DNA from: Halocafeteria seosinensis
Taxonomy: Eukaryota; Sar; Bigyra; Bicosoecida
Reading direction: 5' to 3'
DNA length: 64,000 nucleotides
NCBI GenBank assembly: GCA_001687465.1
Contig: LVLI01000229.1
Coordinates: 1-64,000 of the forward strand
Shown: positions 1,453 to 35,841 of the stretch, piece after piece
Numbering within the stretch: the stretch's first letter is position 1
Layout: the number at the start of each line of letters is the position of its first letter
The notes under the pieces: model-generated
What the model was told of the DNA's origin: nothing
The model's input: the letters and a program-made list of their open reading frames with translations, nothing else
The model's database searches: none
Translations under genes and position numbers: made by a program

Positions 1453-1860
1453 TCACAACCGCAGCATTCCTCGCTGTGGCCCCCCACCCTCTGGCTCTGT
1501 CACTGCCCGATAAGTCCTCCTTGGATGTGCCTGTGCTTTGACTCGCTGAAACAGAGATGTCCCATCATGGAAAAGATCTTTGTGAACTCTCCAGGCCCGG
1601 CCAGACCCACTAACTTCTCCACAATCACCGCACTTATATCCATCAATGATCGGAAGAGAGGGATCCACCTCGGCTAACCGATGCAATGCAGGAGACGGAG
1701 AAAATGTTACCGATTTCAACCAAGCTTTCAGCTCCGGTCTAGAAATTTTCACCTTATGTCGGCGTATGAGATGCTCTCTAAGCGAATTGCAATCCCTACA
1801 GAAAATTTGGGAGCACTCTCTACACACCGGACCGTACTTGCCCGCAACCAAGAGCTCCAT
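1453..1860 (-). CDS. Small protein with two C2H2-like zinc fingers, possibly a mobile-element relic
   Basis: This 135-residue ATG-initiated frame carries two similarly spaced Cys/His motifs. The first is C-x2-C then H-x4-H (CREC ... HLIRRH, about residues 13-36). The second is CGDC ... HKDLFH (about residues 77-99). Two regularly spaced motifs of this kind are unlikely by chance. Pairs of this type are seen in DNA-binding proteins and in uncharacterised, element-associated proteins of fungi and protists. The reading frame sits next to a dispersed repeat and has no neighbouring cellular gene, so it may be the remnant of a larger element gene or an exon of an unrecognised gene. I do not recognise the family, and whether it is expressed is unknown. 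Confidence 0.4.
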   Translation of the reverse strand: MELLVAGKYGPVCRECSQIFCRDCNSLREHLIRRHKVKISRPELKAWLKSVTFSPSPALHRLAEVDPSLPIIDGYKCGDCGEVSGSGRAWRVHKDLFHDGTSLFQRVKAQAHPRRTYRAVTEPEGGGPQRGMLRL

Positions 1861-5592: not shown

Positions 5593-6938
5593 TTAGACTG
5601 CAGTTTGAGCAACCGGAGTATGTTGAGCTATTTTCTGCTGCGATGAATCTTGATGTGTGTTATACTGTTGTTGAGAGCTGTACTCCTTGCCAACTCTAGA
5701 ATACTGGCGGTTNCTCAGAGCGGCATTATTCGCTTGGTCAATCAATTTCTGACGAAGCAAAGAGGTGGCCTTCAGAACTGCCGTCAGCCTAACTTGGCGA
5801 TCAACATTGGGCGCGGCTGCATCCGTCCCTGTGCGAAAGCTTTCCACTTCTATCTCACTTCCTCGTTGCAGTAGTTCGATAGCTTCAGCTGCCGTGGAAA
5901 TGGACGGACCTACGCTCGTTATAGATACCTTGTCTTGATTTTCAAGGGTACGTCGAGCAGAATCGGCGAAAAAAGTAGCCGTTTTTTGGTTTGTCACGAT
6001 AATTGCATCGCGTTGCTGTACAGATCCATCCTCGTTGAGTTGATGCAGGATTGCCGCCAATCCCTTCCAATTGTGAGCACGCTTTGCATTGGCAGGTAGA
6101 TAATCGTCTTGAGTAATTTTATTCCAGCTGTAATCACCATACAGAATAACTGTAGTCACATGAGCCGAGGCTTCCTTAATATATGCGAGCGAATCGTCGA
6201 CGAGCACTTTGGCTCCAACAGATTTACATAGCTCGCTCTTAGTGGTAGGTGCTGAGCCGTCGCTGGCGTAATGGTTGGCAAACAACACATCTTCGAAGAT
6301 GCCTTCGTAGTGCGTATCAAGCCAATTCCTCGTCTTTTCCTCGAGAGAAGTTCTTCTTGACGTCACTACAACAAATCTGCATTTGTCACGTAATCCTCGA
6401 AGCATTTTGGCCGATTCTCCGATGGGTTGGATATGTGTAAAGTGCTCCGACTCGAAGAATTCTTCCATGACTTTGGTCGCCTGTGTTCACGCAAGTCCCA
6501 TTTTCTATCATCATTTCTGCGTCGCATTGCATGGTGGATACCGAGTGCAATAGCTTACCTGATCCACGGGGATTTGCCATACCGTGGCGAAATCATAACT
6601 ATGGTAGTCCGCCGGGGTCAAGCTAGTGCCGAATTTCTCATTGTAGAAGGCGCATAATTGCTCCACGAGCGCACCCTGTACACAGACATGCGAAACCAGC
6701 AGCGAGGTATAAAGACACAGCAACGAACGCAGCATCAATCATTCCCGATGTAGAGTAGAAACACGCCTCCCTCCTCATTGCACTTTTCACTACGTTACTG
6801 ACACAGACGTTCTTTGGGCCCCTTTTTCAACACCTTCATAGAATCTGAGCACACAAATTCACCCGGAAATACACACACTAGATAACTTACAAGGACCTCA
6901 TCAAGATCGATGGCGACGACAACACGTGAATCTGTCAT
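5593..6938 (-). CDS. HAD-superfamily phosphatase (5'-nucleotidase-like) fused to an Alba-like domain
   Basis: The three exons are 6938-6891, 6675-6559 and 6480-5593. The introns start GTAAGT and GTAAGC and both are phase 0. The spliced product is 350 residues. Exon 1 begins MTDSRVVVAIDLDEVL, giving HAD motif I (Asp11, Asp13). VVVTSRR supplies motif II (Thr95), Lys136 is the likely motif III lysine, and VLVDDSLAY supplies the motif IV acidic pair (Asp150-Asp151). This arrangement fits the small cytosolic 5'(3')-deoxyribonucleotidase type of HAD hydrolase; the substrate is not known. From about residue 212 to 310 the sequence starts RDAIIVTNQKTATFF and continues with a pattern typical of Alba nucleic-acid-binding domains. 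The tail is Gln-rich and low complexity. One ambiguous base (n, position 5713) falls in exon 3. The exon structure is well supported because the first two exons supply residues the HAD fold needs. Confidence 0.78.
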
Positions 6939-10400: not shown

Positions 10401-12794
10401 GCTGAACCTTGCCGTGCATGATTGAAGAGTCGACCGACTTGCCTACAAACTTCTCCAATTTGTACTGCTCGGCCAGCAATTCTGCCAGTCTCTGCTCCGC
10501 CTGATGCGCTGTCTTCTTTAAATGAATGCGAGATGCCTTTATGCCTTCTATGGCTTTCTCTAACTTGTTTATGTCGTGCTGTGTCATTTGCATTCTGATT
10601 CGAAACTGCTTTCTCTTGAGCTCGCGCTTCTTCTGCGTTAGTTCACGTGCCGTGAGAAGCCAAGGTTCTCGGTTATCAACTGCGGCTGCAATTTCAGTCT
10701 CGTCCACTTCTTCTTTTCCGTCCATCGAGGAATCCAGGTGTAGATCTCCTTCTACGCCTTCAATGTCGCCATGCTCTTTGATCCACTTCTTCAGTTCGTG
10801 TTTAAGAATACCAATGTATTTTTTTCGTTCGAAACGTTGGTGAAATCCTTGATACATGACGTCTACAGTTCGCATGTCAGTGGCCCGTATCTTGGCCAGA
10901 TCATAGACGAGCTGTTGGCCACGATTGCCATCCAAAGTTCGCACATGGTCAATGTGACTAGATGGAGGACTGGTCTTCCCAGCCGAATTAACTGCCTTCA
11001 CTACGAATTTCGTAAAAGTGGTCGAGTAGGGAAGACCGTCCAGCTGTATCGAAGTAGTCTGACTCTCCTTTTGATGTTTTACTTCCCTTATAGAGTAGCT
11101 TCCACCTTCATTTAGCATATTGCTGAAGTCCACTTGTTCCTCTATATATTCGAGTATGTACTTTTCCACTTCCACTCCCCCACAGAACAATGGTTCAACC
11201 CAGCGTAAGTTTATTTTACTGAACGTCACACTGGTAGCCTCGAGATGTAGGGGTGGCGTAGGCTCGCTCGCTGGGTTTGTTGTTACACTGTCGAGTTCGT
11301 CACTCCACGGCGAATATCCTTTGATATTCAAAGAGCGCACTTTGAGCTTAACGTATTCAGTGTTGGCAGGTAAATCTCTGACAAGAAAGCCCGTGTGCGC
11401 TACTGGCATATTCATATACCAGCGCGAGGTTCCAATTATTTCAGGGCTGTTTGTGGTTTCTCTAACCAGAAGACCATGTTTGTCATAAGTTTTGACCTTG
11501 CGACATAACGAAATCTCGTACTCGTAGACTTCAGCACCACCGTCAAACACGGGAGGCTGCCATTTCAGGGAAAATGAATCCGAAGTGGTATTCACTATTT
11601 TAATGTTCGTTGGCGGGTAGGGAACAGTTGCATAGACGTCCATAATACGTTTGGTAGCGGTCATAGACCTTCCTTTCCTCCCTTTCAAAAGGCGGCAATC
11701 TCCGACATGGTTGTTAAAGCGAAAATTAGGAAAGAATTTGCTGCAGAAGGGGCATCGAAGACTCTCAGATGTAGCACTTTCTTTACCACTCTTTTTCTCG
11801 GTCACTTTTAATCCTTCTTTACTTATTTGGCTATGTTGTTGGGTGGGTTGAGGTCTGCTTGAACCCTCAGAGGATGATGTTTGTGTTTCGACCACACTTG
11901 CGGACAATCCAGCATTTGGTTCATCTTCGTCTGTGTCACTTTCCTCTTTTCTGCTTTCCTCCTCGGCAGTCTTTCGTGTGTACGCAAGTCCGTCGCAAGT
12001 CTTCACGTGTTGATCCAAGAATCCGGGCAGGAACTCGCGGTGGCATCGAGGACATTCGTCGTATCCTGCTTCATGCTTGTTCTTTTCCAGCTCTCTCAGT
12101 ATTAACTCAGTAGTTGTCGGTTCGGCAACCGGCTCGGCATTGAGGTCATTGCGCTTGTGTTCGCCACCATCTGTGTCATTGGTGGATCGCAGAAGCTTCC
12201 TCATATTGAGAATGCGAAACTCGAGGTCTCCGAGAGTATCTTGATGAAGTTTCCCATCAGTTGCTGTGTGACGGACATCGGAAGCCATTGATCTGTAAAG
12301 TACAACGGAGCTATCCGTTCAGTGTAGTCATTGTACTGCACACACACGTTTGTATAACTTACTCGAGCATGTCTTGCATTTTGAGATGCGACTTAATCTG
12401 TAGCACTCGTTCAATGCGCCTTACATAGCAAACTAAAGTTCGTTGTCAACGCACACATCATACATACCCTATCGTAAATGTGCTGGTCATTTTCCTTTAA
12501 CTTGATATACTCTAGCTTGTTCACTGCTGCGGTCCGGTTGGCATGCGGTGCGAAAAACTCTTCAAACTTTTTCAGGTCAAAGTTCTGTGCGCGCTTGTCG
12601 GACGCCTTCATTACTCCCAAAGATTTTGTTCCGCTTTGCCTGGGAGCTACAGATGCTGTATTGCCCTGCTTTTTACTTCCGTCGCGTTTAGAGCTCTTAA
12701 AAAGGTCCATAATGGCCTTCTCGGTCTTCTGAAAGTCCTGTTTCCCTCCTCCCCCATTCTCCTGACTTTGAGCTGAGTTCTTCGTATTATCCAT
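7411..12794 (-). CDS. Large multidomain protein: C2HC zinc fingers, two FN3, coiled coils, TPR, WD40, LysM
   Basis: The three exons are 12794-12468, 12397-12363 (a 35-base micro-exon) and 12292-7411. The spliced product is 1747 residues. The exons join in frame, and without the upstream exons the long frame would start artificially at 12288. Approximate domains by residue: C2HC-type fingers at 199-225 (CPRCHREF) and 298-322 (CPFCSKFF); two fibronectin type III domains at 346-455 and 466-575; coiled coil at 670-835; TPR-like helices at 1010-1155; second coiled coil at 1277-1335; about seven WD40 repeats at 1350-1670 (for example VSGSTDATVCVWD); a LysM motif at 1688-1730 (DTLSKLADEYGVTTNQLLEW). 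There is no signal peptide or membrane segment, so this is a cytosolic scaffold. The role is unknown; coiled-coil/WD40/TPR proteins of this size are often cytoskeletal, ciliary or trafficking scaffolds. An intracellular LysM on a WD40 scaffold is unusual. Confidence 0.85.
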
Positions 12795-15572: not shown

Positions 15573-16797
15573 CTCTCTCTCTCCACTGGCATTTGACTCG
15601 TGCGGATATAATTCTCCTATTGCACTGCTATCCCTTCATGACGGTGGAACAATTGCGTGGCGTTTCCTTCTTTGCCTCACCCCAGTGCGTGGTGCAGCAG
15701 CTCGTCGATCGGTCCTTCTCGACAGCATTCACCGGATGGCCCCGTAAACAAGGAAGTTTGGGGGAGCCCTAGGCGTAGGCACAGAGTAACCATGGACACT
15801 CGGCTTCCTTTAGTGTAAATCCTTTCCTTGTTGCTGCGTATAGCCGTGCTCTTGGCATGCTGTCAGCACTCTTGCTGCTGTGGGTTCAGCGTCCCTTCCA
15901 GAGTCCGTGTAACTACTCTGCAACATTTTGCGCAGGTGTTTCTGTAGCTTCGGTTTGCTCCAGTAGCGTTCGTAGTTTGCATCCGCGAGTCCGATCGTTT
16001 CCTGTAGCGTGTTCTGACTCTCTGCGGACCATTGCGACGGTTTCTTGCGGTACTGTATTGCGCGAGCGGGTCCTGCTCATCTCCTGCCAGTTGGTGGATC
16101 GTTTTTGATGCGTCGACCGCCCCGACGATATGCGATGCTTCTGTTGCGCGGTCTGGGGTGAACCTACGCGGAAGCGGTCCAGCATCTTCACGTTGTAGCT
16201 TGAGCAGCAGGATACGTGTCAGATACGGTCAGGGCACTGTGGAAACATTTACATGTAGCTTTCGGGATTATAAAGCGGCAAGTGAGAAAAATGAGAGTAC
16301 CGGTAGGTATCGACAAAAGGTATTACATATTGCGAACGATTGCATGCCATTCGGACAAAGTGGTTTTAGATAGATTGGGTGGAAGAGCGGTATTCGTCGT
16401 GGGGAAACTCTACTGGACACTGGTTAGAAACATTTAGACTGTAGCATACACACGTCTTCGGCAGGAGCAATACTGTACACTACCAAATACGTACACACAA
16501 CAATGAACACGGAACCTACTTTGCTGGATTTAGCTGATCCCACAATGGCATCATAACTTCCAAGTTCCTACCGACGATGTCAGCACCACCAAAACGCAGC
16601 TCTTGTATTCTCCCCCGGCTACTCGCAATCGACCGTCGTCACGGGATCGTGATCCTAGCCCAGCAACTTCAATGAATTCCTATCGAACCCACAAATACTG
16701 CTCTATCTGCTATTCGGTGGGAATCCGTGGGATTGATTGTGTGTGCAGCAAAGGCTCAGCTCCATTTATTTCTTCTTGTATTTTCCCCACATATACC
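15573..16797. other. Intergenic region upstream of the calcium channel gene
   Basis: No confident gene. Probable retroelement decay lies at the left end, and the promoter and 5' untranslated region of the channel gene presumably lie at the right end. TACTGTA motifs occur at 16051 and 16471. Confidence 0.45.
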
Positions 16798-19700
16798 ATG
16801 TCGGCTCCGTCTCGTCATGTCCACCATGGTCGGCGGCAGCGACGAGCCTCTCTGCCCCACACACCCCTCTCCCAGCAGCAGCAGGAGGCTACTGTGCATT
16901 ATTTGCCTCCACGCGTGTCCACAGCAGAAGGTACGGGCTCAGTCAAATCCTTTCCTCCCCCTTGATATCAGGTCTACCTATGTCTGTGTGTATGTGTGTG
17001 TGTGCCTGTATCCAGCCACGGCCTTGGAGCGAGCGCAAACTTCTCCCGGGCCTGGGAGTGGGAGTGGGACTGGAATTCCACAGCCAGGAGAGTTGTACAA
17101 GGACTTTTCCGGGTCCTATACTAGTACCTCCTTTCCTCATGAGCCACAAGAGCAGCAGCAACAGCAACAGCCAGCGGAGCACCATAAGACAGGAGGGGTT
17201 GGATTCCTTCCTCGGGATGCGTCGGGACAAGCTCGCTCGATACAAGGCGTACGCTACGAGGATGCCTCGTTACAGTACTACGGGAGTATACCCCGAGTTT
17301 TTAATCGGGGAAGCTGTCCGACCCAGGTTCCACTAACGACGGGTGATTCGGCCTTGTTTTTCTCGGACCAAGTAGGAGCTGCGTTGGGGTGTGATGGAAT
17401 CTTGTCCGATGACTGTGGGGTCTGTCCACCCTGGAGCTCCCCTTTCTACACGGCATTCACTTTATTTTCGGCTATCGATGATGATATACCCCCTCGCTTC
17501 TTTGATGAATCGCAGGGCCAACTGAGCTCCCATATCGCAAAACAACACTGCCATTTAACCCAATGGCCACGCTTGCTGGCCAAGCAACTGCAATCCAAGA
17601 TTACCACGATGAACACCGACGACATTAAGAGGCTGTTGGTTGCAACTCTTGATTCTGAAGCTGCTATCACTTCATTGTATATCGGATTTGAACCGTATGT
17701 TTTAGAGCGCTATAGCCAGTTGGCCAATGATGATGAAGCATCTCTGGTGCTTTGCGCCACACGCGACAAAGGAGCTGTTGAAGCAGACCCCCGAGCGGAA
17801 CACATCAATGACCAACTTGCATTTGTGCGGGATGCTAAATCCCCTGATTATCGGTTCACGCAGTGGTACAAAAACGCAAAGGTCCAGGACTCAGGGGTCT
17901 GGTCGGAACCACTCACGAACGGCTCGAGCGACGCCTTAACAATATACTACTCCGTCCCTATTCGGGCTGATGGAATATTCGTTGGAGTAATTTCGATGAT
18001 GCTAAGCATGCACATGAACAGTGAAACGTTACATGCACAGGTTGCGACGCCCGAGATTTCAAGCTCCGAATATGGGTTGACAGGAAAACAAGCCGCGGAA
18101 CACTCGCAACGGCAGCTGGACAAATTAACCACTGGTCCTCGCAAACTTGCAGAGTCCCTCTCACGCAATACTCTCTTCCGTGCCAATGATGATGCATCGA
18201 CCAAGGCAAAACGGCTGGCGGCATCTCTTAACGCCATTCTTGGGGACGAGGAAAAGCTCTTTGGTGCTTGCGTCGCTTTTGCGCCTGGTGTATTTGAGAG
18301 ACATGATAAGCAGTCCTTTTACGCTTGCAAGCAATGTGCAAGCGAGAACACTGTAGGGGAATCGTCAGACTGTAAATCCGGGGCCCTTGTTAGTGACGAA
18401 GAGGATAGAGTCCTACCACAGGTGCTAATTTTGCCATCGGAAGGCAAAACAGAATACAATGTCGGTGAAGACAAAAGAGATGATCAGGCTGCCTCCTCAC
18501 CTTTGACTGCACGATTTGGAGGTATTCGCTATCCTACTATCGCAGACCTCCCGGAAGAGAGCAACAGCTTCCCTGTCGAACCATTACAATATGATTACAC
18601 TGCAAATGAATGGTACGATGCTACCCGAAGGGAGTGCAAAGATCACTGGAGTAAACCGTACTTCGATGAGGGTGGAGGAAACACCTGGATGATTACGTAT
18701 AGCGTTCCGTTCTTTACAACCGAATCTGAAGCAAGTGATAATGATGACGACGATGATTTTGACTTTGCAGGAGTTGTTACCATTGACTTGCTGTACGACG
18801 GTGACATGAAACGGTTGTTCTCTCCTGGTTCTAAAGCAGATCAGAACTCTGTTACCTGCTTTTCCTGTGGACTTCCTTGTGATCACGCCTATTGGACGCC
18901 AAAGTCGAAGTTAGCTCAATCTTCTATTTGTCAACGCTGCGTCCATAAAGGTCTACTACCACGGAACAGTCGATACAAGGACCTCCAATTCGTGGCAGAC
19001 AAGGCTTGGTATGAATGGTGGCAGCGTGTAAGATCTCCTGGCCGCAAAATACGCTTTGGGCAAAAGGTACAACTTCGCCATAAATCAAGTGGAGAAATCC
19101 TATGTGTGAAACTAGATGATGGAAGCTCGCATGGTAGCTTCGTCAAAGGCGATATAGAGGATGCAGATGGCCGTTTGTTGAAAACTGATACGGTACAGTT
19201 GTATCAGGTTACCACAGACAGCGGTAGAGATCCCTACATGGAAGGAAGCATTGACTCATGGTTCTCTATTGAGTCACCTGACCGGCAACATGGGGAACCT
19301 GTTACGTGGGGTGACCAAATTGAACTAATCTCTGTACGTTGGAATTTCCCCTTGGCCATATCTGTTAGTCAGCAAAGGGCGAGGTCGCTGTTTACTTCCT
19401 CAATCAACACGTCTCTTGATGAAGTGGTAATGCGGAAGTGGAGAGTCATTCCGTTTGCTCGTAGGGCATCAGTGGATGGGGACATTGTTCGTTCACTAAG
19501 GCAACAGGTAGATGAGCAAGGTTCATCCGGTAAATTGCTACTTCAACCTGATATTAAACGGAAACTTATAAGTGTTCGACTTGGAATTGCTTGCGGAACA
19601 GGGTTCGGCATTGGCCCAGAGCTTAGCAACCCGTCTACTGTCCGACTTGTTCAAGCGGATCCTCTTGCGGATGAAGGAGCAGTTTCTTCGATGAAGAGAG

Positions 19701-22700
19701 ATGTTTTCAGACCTTCGCGTGTTCTGGAGCTTGAGCATAATGCATCAATGAATGAAAGCGCCTCGTCGGAGGAACACTATGGAGCGGGCAAATATGGAAC
19801 TGCTGATTCATTGGGGATTGCCTCTCTGCTTGGTCGCGCGGAAAAAATGTATTTGCAAGGCGGATGCGTTGTGCGTCTTTCCGTGAATGTGGATTCTGTA
19901 TGTTCCAGTCGAAATCCTAGGAAAAGTCAAGATGACCTCTTGTGCGGGGACTATCCACGTCAGGTTGGAGACTCTGTGGTGGGTCAGAAACGAGTATACA
20001 TTAGCACATCTAGCGCCTCCCAATCTAGCAATGTCAATCTTTCCGCAAGTCAAGTGCTCCAAATCGCCGACTCGGAACGAGAAAATAACGCTGATCGAAG
20101 GTTCACCAAGGTTACAAGCTATCTCGCTGACAATCTGGATGCAAGTTGTTCGCTAGATTCCCTTTGGCTGGTTCAACCTAGTTCCGGTGGAGGAGGTGCC
20201 CTACGACCTGGTGATGGATTTTACCTGTTTCATTTGGCTACTCGTCGCTATCTCGCTGTAAATTGGGAGGACGCAAAAGACTATACAGTCTCCGGTTGCG
20301 AAGGTACATGGCTTGAGGATATGCAGAAACTTTCTCTTGTTGGGGACATCGAGACCGGCATCCCCCTTGAGTCACGTAATGCTGCACCACTGTCACTTGT
20401 TCCTTCAGTTGCCGAAGCAACAATTTTTTGTGCTCAGCGAAGCTGTTACGTAGATCCGACTGAAGGAAAAGGCGGAGAAGAAACTGATGTGTCGTCGGAC
20501 TATTTTGCCCGTTTAAAAGGGTTTAGGTCCAGCTCGAAATCTTTATTTGGTGCCTCTGAACAACGGCGACAAAGCCGTAGCCGGCGTGATTTGGACGACC
20601 AAGACGTTGATGTGGAAGGACAAATGCAATTTACTAGTGAAGATCACTCTCCAATTGAAGTTCAAGAGAGGTTCTTTCTGCAATGTTTGGTCCCATTGAG
20701 TTCTCAACTCTCAGCCTCAAGCAAATTTTGGGTAGGGATGGTAACACCTGAAGCGCTGAAGACTGAGGTACATGAAATGGAACATCAGGCTGAGATGGAG
20801 AGCAGTCGAAAGAGTGATACTGCGTTTAGTCGTATTTCGACCCGGATTAAATCCCTAATCACTGCGGCTTCAGCATCGAAAAGAATGGGTATATTCCGTA
20901 ACGCCGATCTCAGTGCTGGCTTTAGGGCTGAAATTGTAGGTGGGTATGCATCCGTTGATTCTAGAAGGGTTAGCGCGCACATTCATCACCTGTTGGCATC
21001 CGCTACTGAAATACATGCTGCTATTGGAAATGTTGGAGCACCCGATGAGCAACCACTTGTTGAGAAGCTACCGGAAACGGACGGAGAAACGAGTGATTCA
21101 TCCGATGAAGATGCAGCCGACAAGCGAAATACCTCTAAGATCAGTGATTATCAAAAGACTGGTAAAGTACATCTATCAATGTCGAACTTGAGTCATACAC
21201 ATCTCCTGTCACTCTTGAGCAGCGTCTTGCACGTGACTCGGTTTTTGCAAGGAGCGTGTATTGATCATAGCGAAATTGAATCGTTAACCTTTTCAGCAGA
21301 GGGGCAATATTCTCGCGACATTGACAACGTAAAGCAACAATGTAGGCTATCAAAACAGTATACAGCTGAGGCTATCACCTCTCGTCTGGAAGGTATTGTC
21401 GCAGACAATAGCGACCTTGAAGGCCCACAAAGCTGGTGGAATGAAATTGTTTTCCCGAGTGGAACTATGACAGAAGAAGATGAAGATCTGGAAGATGATA
21501 GCGACACTGAAGACGAGCAAACGGCTACCGGATCTGTTACAGACACCAAGACAGGAACCGGAACGCACAATGATAGCCATTCTGGGCATTCTAGCTTTGC
21601 AGAAGAGATAGGAGAGGGGAGTGCACTCAATTTGAACCCGTGTAACACCAGACATCATCGGCAAGCATTGGTTTGGCAGGGCCGTGGTGTGGATGTCATA
21701 ATGCATTCGCTTAAAGCATGTATGAACATCCGCAGGTTGTTCAGCATACCTCATAAAGTGAATCATCAGAGTGAGGTAGTGGAGGCTGCCTCCACGGTCG
21801 CTGTACTGGCACTCGCACGAAAAGTAGCCGCTGTGAACATGTATTGTTTATATCTTCTCCTCCTAGACCACCGACAGGCATGCATAACGACAAGTGCGTA
21901 TTTCGACAAGCTATTGCAATGGGCGTGTATGCGACGGACGCAGGGCCGACCAAATACAGCAGATTTGGTGATCTCGAAAGACCTGGATGCGCATCAAGAT
22001 CATGCGTTGGCTTACTTGGCGTCGGTTATCGTGGAGATAGTTCTGATGACGTATCGTGTCAGTCTCACGGATGTACCCCTACGGCACGTATCCTTATTGG
22101 GTTTCGTCGCTCGCCGTTCGGTCCAGCCCCCGCTGCCCCCTCGTCTGATTCAATTGCTTAGCAAAATCGTTTGTCGTGAGATAGAAACGCAGAGTAAAGG
22201 TGTTGAGAAGCAGCAGGGTACGCGAGAGGCCGAAGTTTTGGATGATGTTGCAGATTACGCTCCTGTTCCTTCGAACCAGTGGGCTGTTAGCATACATTTC
22301 TTACTTCAAGATAACGCCGCAGTGGTACGGGGTTTGCTTCATCCTGACGCACCTATCTGGCACCATCTGGAAATTACACAGCCTCCTACTCCTGAACAAT
22401 TGCGGCGTGTCCGAGTCAAAGACTCGCGGACAAAAAAATATCGCCATGTTGGAGTTGACTCTTTGGTAAGCGTGCTCCAACTCTGTTGTCGGTTGTGTAT
22501 GGGAGCAGCGGGTGTAATTGTCCGGCGAGTATTGGAAGTGCTCGGAGGATGTACCTTTGATCGCCTGATCCACATTGCGTTCGACGAAACGTTGACAGGT
22601 CAACTGTATAGAGTGAGAAGCCAGTGCTGTCATCTTCTTCGTGTCATGTATATTGAGCCGCACGTTATCAAGCACCGGAATATCCCTGGCAATAGCGGTA

Positions 22701-25700
22701 CCGGAGTTTGCGCTGGAGCTGTGACGAACTTATGCGCAAGCATTCCTGGGGTTGACGCCGGTCTGTCGGCCATTGCATTTCCGCAATATGGATCTGATAT
22801 TATAACAGACTCGTGTGAATCTTCCCTTGGTCCCCCAGAAGCTGCGCATCTCTTGAAGCCTGGGATAATGCGGACTATGTCATTCTGGAAACGTGACTGT
22901 TTGTACACTTTGTCGGAAGAAGAAGCATTCTTCAGCGGTGACAATGCAACCTACTTTCGCCAGGAGAGTCTTTTGGAAGTCCTAATAGACAAATGCACCA
23001 GAGATTTGGGGTTGAAGAAGACTTCCGAGATTGTCAGTGCCTTGAATGCAGACTCTGTGGGGATCAGTGACCATACCGTTTATGTTCGCAAAGACGTACC
23101 TCACAATGCGGACGTACCGGTAGATGTATTGGGGGACTGTGGTGTACCAAAACTAGCAGAAACTCAAGTACAGGGAGTAATCCGACATGTGAACATGTAT
23201 CTCGATCGATGCACTGCCCTTTCCTCCAAGAATGAACTCAGCCTTGGAGTTTTGACTCTAGCTTCAGCCATGATACGTCGCGGGGCTCTCACACCGCGGC
23301 AGATTTGCTCTGTGATACCGAACCTGCTAAAGCTTATTGTTGCCGAACAGCAGCGTGATGCATTCTCTTCCGATTGGCAATGGCGAACCGATAAGAAGCT
23401 ACTGCTGCGACTGAAGTTGCGTAGTTGTACGTTGCTGCATACTGTTTGTGACTATGCCACGGCTCATAAAGTGCAACAGTGCGTGGACTATTTCTCTGGG
23501 AAGTTTAGTGACCTGGTGGAACGGAAGGGCTACGATGAGTTCTTTACAGCAATTAGTGCTATCTACGCCCCATCAGAGAATAGCAATCAGGATTTTGAAA
23601 TCATTGAAAGGATGTGTAATCACGACTGGTTTAACAAGGCTTTGGACTCTTGTCAAGCCTCTGAACTTCTTCGGGAAGCTGTTAATCGTGTATCATGGTC
23701 CCCGCTGCTCAAGCTGACTGTTTCCCTACTACGTCGACTGAAAAGCCGACCGTCTGAAGTATTTAAAGCGTTTCGAGACGCTAGCATCCTTTATAGTGGT
23801 GCTGAGTACCGCTTTGCCGTTGAAATTGGATCTATTGCGTGGAGATTGAACGGGATCACATTGTTGGAGCGCACCAGCTCGGAACCTGGCGAGGTTCATG
23901 TCAGTCGTGCGAAGGAAGTTACAAACGCAGCGGCAATGCTGGTACGGAGACTGAGGCTCGTGTTTGGTGCACATGAAAGCTACGGGATCTCCAGGAAACG
24001 AGCCATCGATATATTTCTGGCCTCGAATTGCGTGGATGTTATCATTGGACTCTCAAAGATTCCGTTGAAAGTGGTTTTGCATGCATATGATCTTGGGGTG
24101 CATTCTACAAGTACCTCACCACAAGAGCATCCAATGATGAAAGTGCTGAGGCAAACCTACGCTCTACTCTACAGCCTTGCCAGAACACGTGACCCTACTA
24201 TTTTGACCATGCTTCGCCCCCACATCAACTCGTTCCTGCGTTATCAAGGTTCTTCCGTTGGAACTATGGAGCTGATCATTGAGCTAGTAAAAGGGTGCCG
24301 TGGCGCGTGTGATCTTGTTGACACGGCCCACATTGACACTACACTAGTAAGCTTATCGCAAGTCTCTACATCGATATCCGCTAAAGTGATGTTAATCAGG
24401 TTCCTGAGGTCACTTATGGTCGACATATCGACTGAAGAAGATGGAGATACATCTGGGTCAGTGATCAGCCACAGGAACAAAGAACTAGTTATCCACGGAC
24501 TATGTTCCGGAAAAGCTCAAACCTCATCGGCATCAGGAGATATGCGATTCGGCGCGGAGATTGAGAAAGAAGGACATAGTTTACAAACTGAATCTTGGGC
24601 AACGCTCCGTACCCTGGCTTTCATCCGTTCCAAGATTGGTTTACTATACTTCCTTGGAGAGATAGATGCTGTCTGCCAACCGAACCGACTGCTGGGGAGC
24701 ATCCATTCCTGGTACAGGAAAGACTTCGACGTCAATGCATTGCGAATCAAAGCAGGAAGGGCAGTCCGAAGGCTAAGGTCATACGTTGCATCCGGTTGCG
24801 CTCAAAGTCTTCTTGAATCTATGCCTGAAGGGGAATCGGCTTATTATATGTACGAACTGGAACTGAGCTTGGGGAAATCAAACACGGAAAGAACCCAAAT
24901 GGACTTCTACAAGCGACTTCTGCAGACTATATCTGACTCCCAACAGAACTATACGAAGCAGCACTCACACAATACTGTCGATGAGACCACCCTAGTCATT
25001 CGATCAGCTCTTCCATGGGATGGGATTCTGAGTTGTGTTCTATCGGTGACCTCTTTTTCTCTGAAGTCTAAGTTCCTGCGCTTTCTCTGGGCTGTTTGGG
25101 GCGATAAACTCCCATATGTTAGTACAGAAGGTCTGCAAGCCTCAGTCGTGCTAAACGGAAGCACTGATACCGTTTATGAATACCTGAGTTCCGAAAAAGG
25201 ATTTCCACATCCTGAAACACAACTTCCAGTTCTGGGGCTGTCGACAACCCGAGATTGCACCCCCTTGAGCTTGCTCGCTAATGAGGCCATTGGGGCTGGG
25301 CTCTTATGGCTGCACATATTGGCGGACCCGTTTATTGAGCAGAATATGCATGTCGAGCTTGCACAACCGGTTACCCAAAGTATATGCATCGCTCTTGTTG
25401 GAAGGCAAAATGTCTCAGATCGTGCAACGGAACTGCCACAAGAGCTTGAAAGGTTATCTTGCAGCATGGACTTTGTAGAGTTAACGACACCACCGGAGGC
25501 CGAAATCGCGCTGCGGGGATCCTTGTCTTCCATCCTGAATTGCTATGCCAACAATACCTCGCAGGGCGATTTTCAGAGGCGAACACTTTTGAGTGGAAGG
25601 TCGTCGGGTCTTATAAGAAACAAGTATGAATTGCAGGTTCTGGTGGAGTCCTTGAAGGAAATGTTGTTTGATGTCACCCTTCCCCTTCTTCTTGAAATGC

Positions 25701-28700
25701 TGAGCTCGTCGAATGAAACCCTCCTGCGCCAGACAGAAAGCACAGAGAATGCATCTTCGTTGTTGTTTGCTGTGTTGTGCTCCTTTGCCGACATTATACT
25801 AGCTGTCAGGTCGGCGCATCCGAATTGGTTGCATGCAGGTCACCCCAAAAGAAACAATAACCCAAAAGCGGCATTATCAGAAATGGGAGAAGAGGTGGTA
25901 AACTGTCTCTCTACAGAACAAATAAGGACCGTTTCAAGCATGATTGCGTACCTCTACGATCCAAGAGGCTCATCGCAACCTTCCGGAGTAGATTTGGAGA
26001 ATGTTCGCGAGCAGTACGAGATCGCGAAATTAGATTCGATGCTCCTAGGATGCCGTATACCACGCAGGTTCATGGATGTGAGTCGTCTCCTTGGTAACTT
26101 GTCGGAATATGTTATAAAATCAAAGGAAGTGACCGATGTAGAAGCGAAGATGGAACCGACCCACGGAGAGATTTGTAGCGCTGATGGAGTTCGTTATCGA
26201 TACTCGAAGGGAGTAAAGGAATTTTCTGGTGGTACTCTAGACGCTCCTACAGGAGTGATAGAAGATCCGGTTCACAGAGACACTCCCGGTACAAAGGCCG
26301 ATGAGCACTTGGTAAAATGGATCCCTGGGTGTGCGGTGCAGTCCCTTAAGCAACGATATATGTCAATTGTCGTTGCTTTCCTAAACCAATCCAAGCCATT
26401 AATTGAAACCATAAATTACCAGCCACATGATCTTGCTATGTCGCTGTGCAATAGCGTGTCCATTTTAGCTGGAACTGATTCCGCTGCCAATGATTGCTGC
26501 GACGAAGTGATGAGGAAGATTATCGTTCTGCTGATTAACGACGCATTCAAAGCAGAGGCGGCCATACAGAGCAGAGGCCGAAACCGAAGGATGGATTCAT
26601 ACCCTTGCGCCAGTCGAGCTTCTTGCTGGCTTCTGGATGCCCCGTACGTTGTCTCTTCATTTTTGCATGCTTTTCTCGTAATTGGAGAAGAAGATGGCGG
26701 ACAAAGACGGCTGTGTAACTTGGGTATCCCCCAGTTAGTTGTGGTGTTGTTGAATTACCTCGGTAGCTTTTATACAGTAAAAGAATCAGAGGGAAGCAGC
26801 CGATCGAAACATTCCGCACCGATTCAGCCAGCTGCGGCCGTTGGCGGAAGTGATGTTATTAGTGTTTGTCTGGAACTGGGTGGTCTTGTTTTATCTGAGG
26901 GCTATTTGCCGGCACAGCACAGGCTTCTAGAAGCTTACAAGGCGACACGAAGCTCGGCTTTCCTCGCAGCAATCAATAAAATGATTGAAGGATTTGAGGA
27001 TACGTTATCGGTTCCGTCAAAGTCGTCTGAGTTGATTGGTGTTTCTGAAGCTTTGGTGGCAAGTGCAGACAATTCCTCTACCCATGCTTCTGTGCGTTTG
27101 CAGGTGTTCAATACTGCTAAAGAAAACACCCTGGACGAAGGATCCCACACTCTCGGTGAAACTAGCAGTGACCTCATGCGCTGGAAGGAAGTGGAAAACT
27201 TGCTGTGTTTTATTCAACAGATGTGCGAGGGTCATATGCGGCGCTGGCAAGATGAATTACGTGAACAAGTAGAGTTTGTTGTCCAACACAATGTGGTTGA
27301 ACAGATTATCGACTTCTTGCATAGCTTGGTCGCCAATGGCGGCCCGCTTTGGCAGGTAATGGTCTACTGGGATGCAAAATTTGAGCCGGCGGTGATTTCC
27401 CAGGTGATGAAGGCTTTCGTTCAAATAGTTGCCACAATAACCGAGGTTACGCAAGGCCCCTGTGTAGGCAATCAGCATCAACTCAGTCGGTCGCGACTAT
27501 TTGAAGCCGTCGGGTGGATTTGGCATGCCATAGTATTTGCATGCTCGCATAGTGACAAGCAATTGGTGTACGGCAGCTGGGGAGCACTAGATGGTAGTGA
27601 GCCTCGGTTTGCTTCTGAAAATGGGGACAGGAGCATTGGCATAGTCGAATCTCTTTGGGAAGAAATCGATAATGCCATCCAGGATGTCAAAGAAAATGAT
27701 CAAGAAGACCCCGATTTTGACCTGAACTCCTTGCCCAGAAAATCAATTATGATGTTCCTGCAGGACCAAATCATTGAGTGTCTAAGCGCAATTTTAGAAG
27801 GTGATGCTCGACCGTACGCAGTACGAATGATTCAATTGCTGGATCTTCAGTATATTCCTCAGTTGATCAAATTGGTGCTTCGTGAAGGAGAGGCTCAAGA
27901 TAAATGTTTCCCTGTGGGCAAAGAACTATCTATCAGCTACGAACGCGAACGAATTTCAGATGGAATGTGGGACGGTCGATTTGCAGAACTGGATTTATGT
28001 TGCAAGTACATGGTATTTGTCAAAAGGATAAGTATTCGGATTGGTATCGGTGCGGACCTTGCCATAGACGAAATCTTAAACAGAGCTAGCGAAGGTGCGA
28101 CGGCTTCCGCTGGGGACGACCAAGGCTCCAAAACGACGGATGAAAACCACCTACTTACTATGCTTGCGAAAGTTGAAGAGCAGTTCGACCATGGAACTCA
28201 GGCAATACTAAGAATGTTGGCGGACCCTGAAGTGCAGCGTCTTCAGCGCTTGTGTAACCGGCATGTCACTCAAGTCGAGGTTCAAAGCCCCAGTGGCGCA
28301 TTGGTTCCATTCGTTTTCCGGGTGCCACCTGTGGTATTGCGCCATCGCCAAGATGCTGACTTCCGTGAGAAACGAGAGAATGTACTGTTTAGTGTCTCAC
28401 GGGATAGTCCGTTTTCCCGCATGGAAGACTTCATTAGCGAGTGTCCGGGGCTTGTCTTCGAGCTGACCTCCTATCCGCGCCTCAGAATGTGCAGCCTCGT
28501 GCGGCACGTTCAATTTTTCCTCGATTTGACGTTTGTCCTTGCTCTCATGATCAATGCTTGCCTGCTAGCCTCCGAGTCGCATTTGAACGAGTGGGCCCCC
28601 CGCATTTTGATATGGCCAATGGAGGGGCTAGTACTGCCGCTGGGCTGGATGCATGCTATTGCATCCTTGCTCAGATTCGCTTCAGTCTTAGTCCGGAAAG

Positions 28701-29827
28701 CTCCGGCGTGGCTAAATCAGCGGAGTGACGATGAGGAAACCTCGTTAGAGATAAACATAAAAGATCAGGACAAAGATGATGAAAGTTCTAGAGGTGAATG
28801 GAACGCTGACGATGAGGAAGATCACCGGGCGGGCGCCGTAGGCAGTCGTTACCTTCCTGTTGTCAAGAAGATTACGGCATCAACGCTCTCTGATCCTCAG
28901 GCTGGATTCACGTTTGTCTACGCTTTGTCAAGCTTGCTGGCGGTGTCCCTTGGACGGCCTGCGTTGTACTCGATTCATTTGTTTGACCTCATTTCTAGAT
29001 CGGCACTTCTGCGGGAAACTATATCTGCTTTAAAGGAATATAGCTACTCATTGCTCGCTACTGGGACTCTTTGGCTTCTGCTCATGTGAGTACCATTTAA
29101 CTTATGCTCTCTCTTTAGATTCTCAAATTTTAGTCACACTGTCCCTGCAGGTATACTTTTGCACTGGTTGGATTTACATTCTTCAACGAAGACTTCCCTG
29201 AAGGCGAATGTGCCACTTTGTTTGACTGCGTGGCATTTACGCTGAATTTTGGCATGGTATGCTCATAGTAGCTCTCACCCTGTTATGCACAGTCTAACAC
29301 TTTGCCTTTTTTGCGCGTGTGTTCAGAGAGCCGGTGGGGGACTTGGAGATGTGCTGGATGGTGGTGACGGCAAGTCGCATGGGATCGGTCGGGCATTATT
29401 CGACGTCAGCTATTTTGTACTAATCACGGTAGTTATGCTGGCTATCGTGACCGGAGTTATAATTGGTATGTTTCCACCAGGTTCATCTTTCAGTGTGAGA
29501 ATGTAGATACTCGACTTTCGGGTCGCGTTTGCAGATGCGTTCGGCGCGAGTAGAGACCATCGGAATGCAGTACACGAAAATCAAAAGAACTTTTGCTTCA
29601 TTTGCGGACTGGAGAGCAGTAGGTTTGATCGCCTAGGTCGTGGGTTTGGCTTCCATTGCCGGAATGAGCACAATATGTGGGGATATGTTTACGCAATGAC
29701 ATACCTAAAGGTGAAAGATGACACTAGTTACACAGGGTTGGAATCTTACCTGGCGGACCAGATGCAGTCGGGGGCATTAGAAATCTTCCCCATTGGACGT
29801 GCAACCGCCGCGCCAAAGATTTCTTGA
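16798..29827 (+). CDS. IP3-receptor/ryanodine-receptor-type calcium-release channel with N-terminal Cache sensor modules
   Basis: The proposed exons are 16798-16930, 17016-29085, 29151-29256, 29327-29465 and 29535-29827, giving about 4246 residues. The 3' exons restore the textbook C-terminus: pore loop RAGGGLGDVL, S6 helix ending VTGVIIDAFG, then CFICGLESSRFD, NEHNMWGYVY and SYTGLESYLADQM, all hallmarks of IP3/ryanodine receptors. Upstream are MIR-type beta-trefoil stretches (about residues 710-1200), RIH-type helical arrays, acidic linkers, and membrane segments from about residue 3870. The N-terminus is novel: two Cache-like modules (about 190-375 and 450-640), the second with WSKPYFDEGGGN, MITYSVPFF and GVVTIDL, followed by a Cys-rich CFSCGLPC ... 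CQRC finger. The family releases calcium from internal stores. The 5' intron (16931-17015) is inferred; it removes a GT-rich stretch and joins in frame. The ATG at 16672 is an alternative start. Confidence 0.9.
16931..17015 (+). other. Probable first intron of the calcium channel gene, with a GT microsatellite
   Basis: Donor GTACGG follows codon fragment GAA-G, and acceptor ...TGTATCCAG precedes CC-ACG, so the splice keeps the frame (phase 1). The interval holds a (TG)n-rich tract. If read through, it would encode a low-complexity Val/Cys/Tyr peptide, which argues it is intronic. Without RNA data this is an inference. Confidence 0.6.
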
Positions 29828-30975: not shown

Positions 30976-32162
30976 CTACTGTATTACCTCTGTGGAAAAC
31001 GGATCTTGTCGACGTAAGTCATCTTTAAAAGGTAGAAAAAGAGAACAACGTTGTACCAACAGCAGTCATGACGAAAATTCAGCTCAAAGCATACCGTGGC
31101 GACGAACTGCTGAGTAGTAATACTCAAACGTATTCCCCGAAACCGGCTTTTGAGATAATGCGTTGTCACTATACCGGTTTGGTCCACTGTCGCACTCCTT
31201 AGAATGAACTTCATCGTATACAGCGATACCAACAGTGTTATCGATTTCTTCAAAGGAGTTCCACCCTACTTGCCATTCGTGCGCTTTCTGCGTGCAATTC
31301 ATGTTTACTGACGGACTTTTGTGCATTTGCTCGAGAAACGCAGGAGCAGCGGCCATTTCTCCCAATTCCTGTGCCTCCGGTATTTCATTAAATTTATCTG
31401 ACTGTTGTAAGAAAGTCGTCACTTCCTTCTGTGTCCATTTGAGGCAATCTGTCCGTGCTAACCCTTTGATCTTGTCTAGACCATTCAAATCCACAAGAAT
31501 CTTAGTCTTTTCTTTATCCGACACGGCAATGACAACGTTAAATTTCCCCCTGTTGTTGCGAGATTGCGTCGCGAGGGCGCGGATGTAATTCTTAGCTTGT
31601 TCGTCCAAAGCAATATTTTCAGCTTGATCAATGATGATGAGAGACTTGTCAGGGATGCAATCTTTCAGTTTCTCGTTCTTGGGAATAGTTAAAGCAGTAT
31701 GAACATCATGTGTTCCGTCAACGTGAACAACGTGTACACCAGCTTGTCTAAGTTCGTTGGCACAGGCTATAACGTAGCAACTCTTCCCCGATCCGGCCGG
31801 AGCGTACATTACAAACACACCTCCATAAGGATACTTGGCAGCTGTTGTCACCAGACCGATGATGGACTGCTTTCCACGTATGGAAGATCCTTAGATTGGG
31901 CTAGAGGAAACACGTCAGTTTTCATCATCTTTTCCTTAACAGCATGCTCTATACCCGCTCTCCACTTGTGATATCGGTCTTGATCGGCTTGGTTTTGGTT
32001 CGCATAATGAAGATAGGCCTGGACACACGCTGAAAATGCCCCCACGAGCCCACCTCCTACGCTAAATACTCGTTCTGCTTCGCCAGCCCACATCATCGGT
32101 TTTTTCCTTTGTACCACAAGTTGATTACTGTAGATCAAGTGATATCGTTTTAATACACACAT
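30976..32162 (-). pseudogene. P-loop ATPase gene with a single-base frameshift
   Basis: The minus-strand gene starts at ATG 32162. The first segment has a hydrophobic stretch (VGGGLVGAFSACVQAYL) and runs in frame to about 31891. The downstream frame then carries Walker A (YAPAGSGKS) and Walker B (SLIIIDQAEN). Continuity is restored if one base is missing in the short G run at about 31889-31891: the first frame reads FPLAQSK and the second continues GSSIRGKQSIIGLV without a stop. A probable 3' intron (31094-31023, donor GTATGC) joins to a last exon ending with TAG at 30976. The product would be a membrane-anchored STAND/AAA-like NTPase of unknown role. The break may be a true mutation or a base-calling error. 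No gene partner is evident. Confidence 0.55.
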
Positions 32163-33066
32163 TGCTCCTTATCAACATCCAAATTCTGTACCAACTCGAC
32201 CGTCAGGTGTAATACAAGTAAAGTGTAAACTTTAAAGTCGAGCTATCCCAAACAAAGAAACAATATAGATACATGTGTAGTACATTGTGTACATGATATC
32301 ATTGTATGCTGGCTACTGAAAATACCCTTCTTACAGTACAGTGTACTGTTATTACCCGTTTTCTTTCTCTCCTCAATCAAGCCATAGATACACGCCCGAA
32401 CGCTACAGACGGACGTACATGTTTTCTGTATCTGATGTTGGAATGCCCTGCCTAAGAATTACTTACCCCAAGAAGGAAGGTTGTACAAAAATTTCCGCCC
32501 TGTTCACTTCCACGTGTACGTCTCCATGCTTTTGTACACGTATCTCAAACAATGAATGTAGGACTCAACTGTTGCTCGAGATATTATTTCACATTGCTCG
32601 AGCAGGCCTATAGCGATGAACACACACACACACTACCCTGTAGACGCCAGGCCGTTAACTGTGGCCATTGCAGTTGTGGAAGAAGAGCAAGCAATCGTCG
32701 ACTTACCTGGATACTGATACACACAAATGCAAAACAGTTTTTCGATACAAAAAAGAGAAGAATGTAAAGTGTCTCTAAAGCTATTCAGCACTACATCATT
32801 TCCCTCTTTCCTACAACAGGAAGTACCTTTTTTATTATTTTTTTCTTAAGTTTTACACTTCTCGAAAGACTGTGCGGTTGAACATCCGACGGGCCGGCGG
32901 CGACGGCAGCCGAAACCATGTACAAAAAAGGTCCACAGGGGGATTCCAGGGGGAGGAGGCATCGTCATTTGAATTATGGAGTCCAGTGCTCTCTGTGGCT
33001 CAGAGTTTGATAGCACAGAGGTCATTTTCACATTCAGATGACATTAGAATATACTCAGGAATAAAA
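32163..33066. other. Intergenic region, probable divergent promoter
   Basis: This lies between the divergently transcribed ATPase and AP2 genes. No coding signal. A pyrimidine-rich stretch ('ttttttattatttttttctta') lies near 32829, followed by a frame that opens into the AP2 gene but has no ATG before 33067. A CA microsatellite lies near 32618. A TACAGTA motif lies at 32332. Confidence 0.5.
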
Positions 33067-35841
33067 ATGATGATGGTAACGAACTCGAGTGTGCGTCGAA
33101 ACATGCTAATGGAGCCTGCATCTTGCTCCAAAGAGGAGGAAGCGTCGGCTCCTCCAGGGTCTGTACACGCCAAATGCCCTGTTTCTCAGGCGAATCAGGG
33201 TCCTACCGAGTCCATACAGGCTCAACACGGCCTCTCCAGTACCCAGTCGAGCGAGCAAGCGTACCACTACCCTCTGTTATCGTCTCGGCCTTTCCTGACG
33301 GACATGACGGGGGCCGTGACCTCCTCCATTGTACAGTCTCAATTAGCCCAATTGTTGATGGAAATGAGCTCAGATACCGAAGGGGATACATCCCACAACA
33401 GTACGTCGTTTTCTGCTTCAACGGCGACCGCATCCGTGGAGGAAGCCACGAAATCTGAGAAAGAGAATGCGGTGGAGAGTGTGAAACAGAGCACAACTAC
33501 CAATTATCATCCACCCGACACTTTGGAAGACGCAGGAGGCTCCACGGAGAAGAATGGTGGTGGAAATGTAGTGCCTTCAGGATCCTCGGCGCTTGGGACG
33601 GCCGCCGCGGCGAGTGAGAAGAGTGGAGAGGGACCGAATGAAGACGAGGAGCACAGGATCCTGGAATGTATGCTATCCTCAATGCGAGAAATTGCATATC
33701 GAGCGATGGAAAATTGTCACTTTCGTCGGAGTACGCTGGACGATTCTATTCTCAGAGAGGGATCGGCTTTGAGACGAGTACTCCACGGACGCAAAGCTGA
33801 GACAGTTTTATCTCATGCGGCGCGATTAGATCCTCAACAAATCGAAAAATTCTCCGGTGCAAGACCAAATGATGGACTCCAAGGGACAGATGTGGATGCT
33901 AATTCTTCGCAAGGCGACATTGAGCAGATGATTGAAGCTATCGTTGAATCGACAAACTTATCCAAGAATACTGCAAGAGAATTGCTTATGGCAGGGACTA
34001 CAACAGGCTCCAGTAGCCACCAAACAACCACCAACCCGCGCAAGAGTACGAGAGCTGCAGCCCGCAAAGCAGCAGCCTCTTCTTTGACAGGAGGTAGTAT
34101 ATCAAACTCCGATGCTAATGTTGCCACCGAAGTTAGCACTGAGACGGTGCAGGCCGCTTCGGAGTCCTACAGTCAAATACAATATAGCAACACCAGCAGT
34201 GTCTACGACATTGCCGGAAATGCTCCTACGCTGATCAATAGCCAGGACGCGAACCACTCAGCGTTTGGACGAGTCAACAGCACGGGGACATATAACGGAA
34301 ATCTGGGCAACATAACCGGTTCTCAGTCCACGCACTTTGATATTGACGATGCTGAGGGGCCTTTCACTAACAGCGACATGCCAGGTGGTAACTTGCATCC
34401 GTCTCAGAGCTCTTTCGCATCGCTAACTAGCGTTCGAAGCTCTGGAATGGACAATGGGCTCCATTATGGTACTGATGACGGACATGAACTATCGCAATCC
34501 CAACGCAGCGACTTTAGATACGAAGCTTTAATGGAACCTGAAGCATCACAACAAAGTGATGATTTATCAGCAAACGTAGACGAAGACTACGATCTATCAC
34601 ATATAAATTCTCCGGGGGATAATGGCGGGGCAAGTGAACGAAGAAGCACACTTAGCCCTTCTGTATATGAAGCAGCATCACTACTACGCATTCAGCAACA
34701 GCGCACCCCACATGGCCTTACACCTAACGGCGCCCTCTCAGCTTCATCGTCTGGAGAAAAAAGGCACGGGTATTCAAACAGCCCGGACGACCAAAGCTCG
34801 CGAAGACGGTCTGAGTTCACCGACCCGTCGGATGCGTATCTCTTTGACGATGATTCCAATACGAATGCTTCGAGAGGAAACAAGCGCGGAAACTCAAAGA
34901 AACAGGAAAAAAAGTCAACCTCGTCCAAAAGAACTGCGGCCAAAAAACGGAAGAATCCCGCAAGTGGGGCAGGTTCTGAGGGTGGAGCGTCTGGGGATGA
35001 ATCCAGTCTGAATAATGATAGCACAAGCAAGAAATCTGGACAAAAACGAGGTAGGAAACAGAAGGAAACTAAGCCAGCAAATAAAACCACTTCAACCAGT
35101 GATGGCAACGAGAGCAAGAACGAAGATGAACCGAGAAAGGTGAGCCGTTATTTGGGGGTCAGTTGGATCCGCGCTACGGAGAAATGGAGAGCTGACAGTG
35201 TCGTTAATGGGAAACTTCAGTACTTGGGTTGTTACGACACCGAAAGACAGGCCGCTCAAGCTGTCGATAAAGCCCGGGTTAAAGGCTGGGACGGAAAGTC
35301 GAAGATACGTCTTAATTTCCCCGAAGAGCACCCTGAAGTTACCACTGCTACTCCTGCTGTAAAACAAGCCCGTGGTACCTCGAAATTTGTCGGTGTTTCA
35401 TGGGATGTCAAACTTAAAAAGTGGAAAGCTAGGATCGTCCTTGATGGCAGACATGAAAGGATAGGACTTTTTGACTCGGAAGAAGAAGCAGCCAGGGCTG
35501 TGGATAAGAGCAAAGTAGAGAACTGGGATGGGTCGACCATGCCACGTCTGAATTTTCCAGAAGAGTATAACCTTCCTCACGGTAAGGGTTCCCAAGCAGC
35601 ATTGGTGAAGACAGCAGTTGAACATGGTTTGAATATTCCGAAAGTCCGAGGAAAGAAAAACCAGCAAGTTGTGGAGGAAGCTACCCGTTCTACTGGGGCC
35701 GCGGAATTTCCCAATGACGCATCATCTTCTCGCAGTACGGGAACTAAACGTAGTCAACGGCAAAGCCGCAAACGCAAGAATGCTAGCGCCTCTGCCACCG
35801 CTGATGACTCTGATGATTTCCTCCACGATCCTTCCGAGTAA
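33067..35841 (+). CDS. Double AP2-domain DNA-binding protein
   Basis: This single-exon frame of 924 residues starts from the first of three consecutive ATG codons (33067). The N-terminal three quarters is low complexity and rich in Ser, Thr, Asn and Gln. A Lys/Arg-rich basic region near residues 615-690 resembles a nuclear localisation signal. Two AP2 domains follow: about 693-753 (SRYLGVSWIRATEKWRA ... LGCYDTERQAAQAVDKA) and about 771-833 (SKFVGVSWDVKLKKWKA ... GLFDSEEEAARAVDKS), each ending with LNFPEE. AP2 domains bind DNA with a three-stranded sheet. Such proteins are transcription factors in plants, algae and apicomplexans, though related AP2 domains also occur in mobile-element endonucleases; none of the endonuclease motifs is present here. 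The C-terminus is again basic and acidic. It is likely a nuclear regulator; the targets are unknown. Confidence 0.88.
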   Translation: MMMVTNSSVRRNMLMEPASCSKEEEASAPPGSVHAKCPVSQANQGPTESIQAQHGLSSTQSSEQAYHYPLLSSRPFLTDMTGAVTSSIVQSQLAQLLMEMSSDTEGDTSHNSTSFSASTATASVEEATKSEKENAVESVKQSTTTNYHPPDTLEDAGGSTEKNGGGNVVPSGSSALGTAAAASEKSGEGPNEDEEHRILECMLSSMREIAYRAMENCHFRRSTLDDSILREGSALRRVLHGRKAETVLSHAARLDPQQIEKFSGARPNDGLQGTDVDANSSQGDIEQMIEAIVESTNLSKNTARELLMAGTTTGSSSHQTTTNPRKSTRAAARKAAASSLTGGSISNSDANVATEVSTETVQAASESYSQIQYSNTSSVYDIAGNAPTLINSQDANHSAFGRVNSTGTYNGNLGNITGSQSTHFDIDDAEGPFTNSDMPGGNLHPSQSSFASLTSVRSSGMDNGLHYGTDDGHELSQSQRSDFRYEALMEPEASQQSDDLSANVDEDYDLSHINSPGDNGGASERRSTLSPSVYEAASLLRIQQQRTPHGLTPNGALSASSSGEKRHGYSNSPDDQSSRRRSEFTDPSDAYLFDDDSNTNASRGNKRGNSKKQEKKSTSSKRTAAKKRKNPASGAGSEGGASGDESSLNNDSTSKKSGQKRGRKQKETKPANKTTSTSDGNESKNEDEPRKVSRYLGVSWIRATEKWRADSVVNGKLQYLGCYDTERQAAQAVDKARVKGWDGKSKIRLNFPEEHPEVTTATPAVKQARGTSKFVGVSWDVKLKKWKARIVLDGRHERIGLFDSEEEAARAVDKSKVENWDGSTMPRLNFPEEYNLPHGKGSQAALVKTAVEHGLNIPKVRGKKNQQVVEEATRSTGAAEFPNDASSSRSTGTKRSQRQSRKRKNASASATADDSDDFLHDPSE

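Follow-up and report, generated by a model that had tools for sequence, protein, structure and literature searches.

How the release of stored Ca2+ is controlled in a protist is the question raised by a gene of the bicosoecid Halocafeteria seosinensis, located at positions 16798-29827 (+) of the analysed window, a stretch of 64,000 nucleotides (assembly GCA_001687465.1, contig LVLI01000229.1, positions 1 to 64,000). Inositol trisphosphate (IP3) receptors (IP3R) and ryanodine receptors (RyR) are the classic Ca2+-release channels, and their gating in protists is partly open. The protein predicted here joins such a channel to two bacterial-type Cache sensor modules, and a sensor in the same polypeptide offers a testable answer to the gating question for one lineage. 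Judging from homology, we favor with moderate confidence, as the best overall explanation, an IP3R/RyR channel with Cache-based regulation. The fusion suggests a Ca2+ store on which a small molecule may act directly, opening or tuning it; if true, Cache, mostly an extracellular fold, would here be placed in the cytosol.

Gene structure and channel identity

The Cache and channel parts share one stop-to-stop frame of 12.4 kb (16676-29089, +; 4137 residues) that is open throughout. Using GT-AG signals at both frame ends and tracing the channel C-terminus, we predicted, from sequence only, a five-exon gene with four short GT-AG introns (85, 65, 70, and 69 bases) encoding 4246 amino acids; an earlier note on this window had placed the start and end of the gene at the same positions (16798 and 29827). 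From here on, residues are numbered along the open frame; subtracting 69 gives the protein number. Exon 1 (16798-16930, +) holds the predicted start and a Q-rich N-terminus without a hydrophobic segment, and is followed by an intron with its GT at 16931 and its AG ending at 17015. Exon 2 (17016-29085, +; 12,070 bases) encodes both Cache modules, a Cys-rich linker, the trefoil parts, a long middle part, the RIH_assoc domain, and the first membrane segments. Exon 3 (29151-29256, +) leads to exon 4 (29327-29465, +), with the filter GGGLGD at 29333-29350 opposite GGGVGD of ITPR2, and exon 5 (29535-29827, +) closes the gene with a C2H2-like finger (CFICG...HCRNEHNMW) and the stop.

The earlier note had read the C-terminal half as an IP3/ryanodine receptor, and our searches bear this out. 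RIH_assoc matched the frame at 6.2e-20 (Pfam; 71.4 bits, cut-off 28.5) and was found once in the genome search, at 27188-27514 (+; 76.7 bits, same cut-off), with RyR3 as best PDB match (3.9e-8). The Ion_trans pore region (28961-29473, +) reached 35 bits (cut-off 25) when read through introns, and the spliced C-terminus aligned to ITPR2 at 2e-41, keeping the filter and CFICGLE...EHNMW. SPRY and RyR repeats were absent from the five Pfam matches in the frame (E up to 10), and RYDR_ITPR (RIH; PF01365) was found neither in the protein (E up to 10) nor in the genome scan, where the control was also unmatched. To judge by the homology of pore, C-terminal finger, and RIH_assoc, the protein belongs to the IP3R/RyR superfamily of intracellular Ca2+-release channels and, by analogy, is presumably a tetramer. 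Elsewhere in the genome (C235:87065-98009), several Ion_trans matches lie close together in large frames, perhaps tandem four-domain channels.

Two Cache modules of bacterial type

Bacterial-style Cache modules had also been proposed for the N-terminal part, and here too the searches agree. PF22673 (MCP-like_PDC_1), the first PDC sensor domain of chemoreceptor-like proteins, matched the frame in two stretches (Pfam; 2.3e-26, 92.9 bits, cut-off 27). Scored apart in the genome search, the stretches at 17624-18010 and 18587-18727 reached 46.6 and 49.8 bits, respectively (cut-off 27). Module 1 (17531-18025, +; protein residues about 217-381) and module 2 (18083-18808, +; protein residues about 401-642) both have a Cache fold by computation. 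Module 2 has a long loop and contains WSKPYFDEGGGN and GVVTIDL; these phrases and TYSVPF, all quoted in the earlier note, are present in the frame. On a profile of bacterial relatives, each module comprises a helix-plus-FEP/AFAP half and a WY...WS.P...YSVP half. Both modules fit the PDC1 half of the bacterial double sensor, the second also being matched by PF22673. Pfam on the frame recognised no PDC2 after PDC1 and did not list dCache_1, a diverged PDC2 being possible, and no NCBIfam family was matched.

When the Cache part and linker were used as a profile against 5.8 billion proteins, 20 proteins were retrieved, all with PF22673 and 19 with PF02743. Twelve carry a SpoIIE phosphatase and three a chemoreceptor signalling domain; the remainder include a histidine kinase, a PAS protein, and an anti-sigma-type protein, and 2 of the 20 have "bacterium" in the record name. 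The bacterial-relatives profile and a tree of the module cores used 19 of these 20 rows, with P0016 left out. Since the rows were picked by the channel's own profile, the bacterial-relatives profile cannot serve as independent evidence, whereas the Pfam matches can. In viral contigs scanned with the Cache alignment, 14 pattern matches turned up, none of which was confirmed. Codon usage is alike in the Cache part (0.071) and in seven channel windows (0.067-0.093), giving no support to a recent bacterial insertion.

Among the best candidates scored across the 30.6 Mb of the genome, no further PF22673 was listed besides the two modules. Three weaker dCache_1 matches, all under cut-off, lie on two other contigs. 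One falls at C37:97143-97682 in a 1050-aa frame (1736-4888, -, in the numbering of the extracted locus), where weak dCache_1 (25.1 bits, cut-off 45) is followed by TPR repeats, perhaps marking another Cache protein. At C170:77133-80258, two frames have sub-cut-off dCache_1, one of them with HAMP (24.2 bits, cut-off 25), and may represent bacterial-style receptor parts in a eukaryotic genome.

Conservation of the fusion

The earlier note had proposed looking for the fusion in related genomes, and it was found in two further proteins. Each of these ENA proteins (P0001 and P0002; 3802 and 3801 aa) carries RIH_assoc together with two Cache stretches in a single frame, with PF22673 at 78.3 bits in P0001 and 53.6 bits in P0002. 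They are identical to the window protein at 2033 of 3754 and 1955 of 3749 aligned positions, and to each other at 2366 of 3751. Both stop at the position of the window's first 3' intron, as expected from an intron-blind gene finder, and because the predicted proteins start near residue 241, their upstream exons are not covered. The junction from Cache to trefoil, including the five-Cys linker, is one of the regions with higher conservation (0.56-0.66 per 100 residues). In the tree of module cores each module formed its own group (100/100), so both modules were already there when the three proteins diverged. Residues 3300-4137 as query brought back six proteins: P0001, P0002, and four from animals that carry RyR domains. 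Given that this search reached relatives sharing short exact words at 0.55-1.75 times the length, Cache-free protist channels cannot be called missing. As far as sequence comparison can tell, the fusion is a genuine and conserved architecture, new within a channel family that is itself known, and is present in three proteins.

Candidate N-terminal trefoils and probable position of the modules

According to the earlier note, the Cache part might replace the usual N-terminus of the channel; this idea was not supported. After the modules, at 19028-19468 (+), comes a putative second part of beta-trefoil A, the region of the IP3R suppressor domain. Scanned alone, residues 785-930 reached 24.1 bits for PF08709 (cut-off 23; best stretch positions 143-187), scored 54 against ITPR1 100-225 with 0 of 1000 shuffles as good, and matched RyR in hhalign (E 1.8e-4, probability 48%); P0001 and P0002 were weaker against ITPR1 100-225 (P 0.10 and 0.04). 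A region that probably holds part of the MIR-like beta-trefoil B follows at 19847-20440 (+). Shuffles against ITPR1 225-318 gave P 0.001 for the window protein, 0.018 for P0001, whose best alignment falls on a different stretch, and 0.003 for P0002, and the hhalign match to RyR (E 0.0012, probability 19%) is collinear with that of trefoil A. As a counterweight, PF08709 (14.2 bits, cut-off 23) and MIR (18.5 bits, cut-off 25.6) are both under cut-off in the whole frame, and the orthologs score lower. Given that PF08709, shuffle, and ordered hhalign matches follow the Cache part, the N-terminal trefoils appear to be at least partly kept.

Because residues 785 onward align to ITPR1 111 onward, the first ~110 residues of trefoil A would have to be sought upstream of the modules, unless they have been lost. 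Candidate first strands are encoded at 17330-17479 (+), upstream of the modules, where residues 220-266 resemble ITPR1 9-60 with the pattern GD...L......L.DD.C.V.P. We regard it as reasonably probable that the Cache modules were inserted within trefoil A, at a site close to the suppressor-domain arm. Several results weigh against this placement. The candidate strands are not significant against ITPR1 (shuffles P 0.14-0.16, with 24 of 214 frame windows as high), and for this reason we infer the insertion rather than report it as found. Against three RyR the shuffles gave P 0.86-0.94, the piece matched 0 Pfam families, and hhalign to four RyR returned an unrelated match only (probability 0.1%). 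Joining the trefoil A flanks brought no gain for PF08709 (23.6 vs 24.1 bits unjoined), joined P0001 and P0002 scored 16.3 and 15.7 (cut-off 23), RyR rows came out scattered when they were included in an alignment, and the structure model has a predicted local distance difference test score (pLDDT) <50 in the candidate-strand part and in the trefoil.

Directly after the modules lies a zinc-finger-like Cys-rich linker (CxxCxxxC...CxxC; 18857-18940, +), whose five Cys are invariant in all three proteins; two pieces scanned gave no Pfam family over cut-off. The spliced model shows no membrane span within its first 1300 windows, where the top 19-residue hydropathy is 1.48, at a Cache strand, and no flanking membrane helices in the style of dCache_1 (no 19-residue window >1.48). 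Between modules and trefoils, no hydrophobic segment was present in the three proteins. As the N-terminal part is without a membrane segment, it is probably cytosolic, and on these hydropathy profiles we consider a cytosolic location of the Cache modules very likely. The trefoils are cytosolic in known channels.

Proposed gating and alternative explanations

We propose that the N-terminal Cache modules, probably cytosolic and probably inside the first beta-trefoil, would most likely either have a cytosolic metabolite as ligand or pair up across subunits. Ligand binding or pairing would then move the apical ring of trefoils, the ring that IP3 moves in animals, and this movement would raise or lower the open probability of the channel, alone or together with IP3 and Ca2+. 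We lean slightly towards the modules being a ligand-sensing regulator. More tentatively, the protein could be a metabolite-gated channel in which a Cache pair was captured into an ancestral IP3R suppressor domain, opening or tuning Ca2+ stores without a surface receptor and phospholipase C.

IP3 may act as well. The IP3-coordinating residues of ITPR1 lie at 265-269 (RTTGR) and 504-511. Opposite the 265-269 contact loop the window protein has a gap or dissimilar residues, and alignment did not find the helical IP3-binding part (P 0.30-0.78). Trypanosome channels are reported to have poor IP3 contacts yet to be activated by IP3 (PMC9694693), so weak contacts do not exclude IP3 gating. The genome holds one PI-PLC-Y domain (C24:74889-75227; 119.5 bits, in a 1122-aa frame). 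We therefore rejected an absence of IP3 production, and dual control is possible.

The main competitor to ligand sensing is that the modules bind no ligand and are structural or assembly parts, enlarging the suppressor-domain region and pairing subunits or docking partners, with gating by Ca2+ or IP3 as usual. We consider this rather unlikely, and several features nevertheless fit it. The Gly-rich motif WSKPYFDEGGGN is altered to WSKPHFGEGEVG in P0002, and the motif and its YFDEGGGN core are missing from module 1 in all three proteins, both of which also count against a sensory role. The PI-PLC-Y domain of the genome fits a structural role as well. The dCache_1AA motif, compared by eye, looks incomplete: both the aromatic pair and the GVVTID Asp are present in module 2, the position of the Arg that belongs to the PctA amino-acid ligand motif reads N, H, and R across the three proteins, and the Asp is missing from module 1. 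The PctA motif includes Y121, W128, Y129, Y144, and D173, and such motifs define the purine, amino-acid, and amine classes of dCache (PMC11245519). A purely structural role is at odds with the retention of both modules in all three proteins with many invariant residues, above all in module 2.

The two remaining alternatives are much less probable than a structural role. An unnoticed signal anchor could make the Cache part face the lumen of the endoplasmic reticulum or the outside, where it would sense extracytoplasmic molecules, as bacterial Cache domains do; the first exon of the window gene is a prediction, and the predicted P0001 and P0002 begin only near residue 241. We judge this very unlikely, given the lack of a hydrophobic segment in the spliced N-terminus or before the trefoils and the paired-Cys linker and trefoils directly after the modules. 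Finally, a Cache protein gene might simply lie beside an ordinary channel gene, or the assembly or gene model might be at fault, the exon boundaries having been predicted from the DNA. The uninterrupted frame, the identical fusion in two other proteins, and the conserved junction led us to reject this explanation, which the similar codon usage of the two parts also opposes; its probability is very low, and we have hardly any doubt that the Cache-channel fusion protein is real.

Other features of the window and genome

Elsewhere in the window, a 989-aa frame (32872-35841, +) has an AP2 domain (35.1 bits, cut-off 33.3), a 1625-aa frame (7411-12288, -) has fn3, TPR, and WD40 repeats, and NT5C nucleotidase is matched at 5593-6468 (-; 32.8 bits, cut-off 24.8). 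A giant frame of 2643 aa (56070-63998, +, open) with ankyrin repeats and TPR-like matches is cut by the window end, and a 255-aa frame (31084-31851, -) has weak AAA or STAND NTPase matches under cut-offs. Rfam gave no match in the window. The organism is probably not photosynthetic, given that no light-harvesting match was found in the genome.

Comparison with known systems

No published fusion of Cache with IP3R/RyR was found among titles and the starts of abstracts, subscription papers lying mostly outside the search, and the word "Cache" is absent from the main text of studies on diatom channels, oomycete IP3 signalling, Paramecium channels, and the endoplasmic reticulum system (PMC11085791, PMC9694693, PMC3213138, PMC7016017). 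IP3 contacts are described as poorly conserved in oomycete channels (PMC9694693), and an IP3-binding region as present in only some Paramecium channels (PMC3213138). Cache is portrayed as a mostly extracellular sensor fold, found in eukaryotes mostly in alpha2delta, histidine kinases, and a Naegleria cyclase, an occurrence attributed to horizontal transfer (PMC4822843).

Like the animal IP3 receptors ITPR1-3, the window protein has the GGG-GD filter, the EHNMW finger, putative N-terminal trefoil segments, and RIH_assoc. It differs from them in its length of 4246 rather than about 2700 residues, in having two Cache modules plus a Cys-rich linker in the N-terminal part, and in the gap or dissimilar residues opposite the RTTGR contact loop. 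With ryanodine receptors it shares the RIH_assoc affinity to RyR3 and weak collinear trefoil matches, but not SPRY or RyR repeats within the Pfam matches listed; ryanodine receptors are not known to have a Cache domain. The modules resemble bacterial dCache sensors of SpoIIE-type phosphatases, chemoreceptors, and histidine kinases in their PDC1 fold and WS-PYFDEGGGN-TYSVPF core, and differ in being two PDC1-type modules with no recognised PDC2, no flanking membrane helices, and a eukaryotic channel as output. In alpha2delta of voltage-gated calcium channels and in GPR158, Cache is extracellular and sits on a separate subunit or a G-protein-coupled receptor, whereas here it lies within the release channel polypeptide itself.
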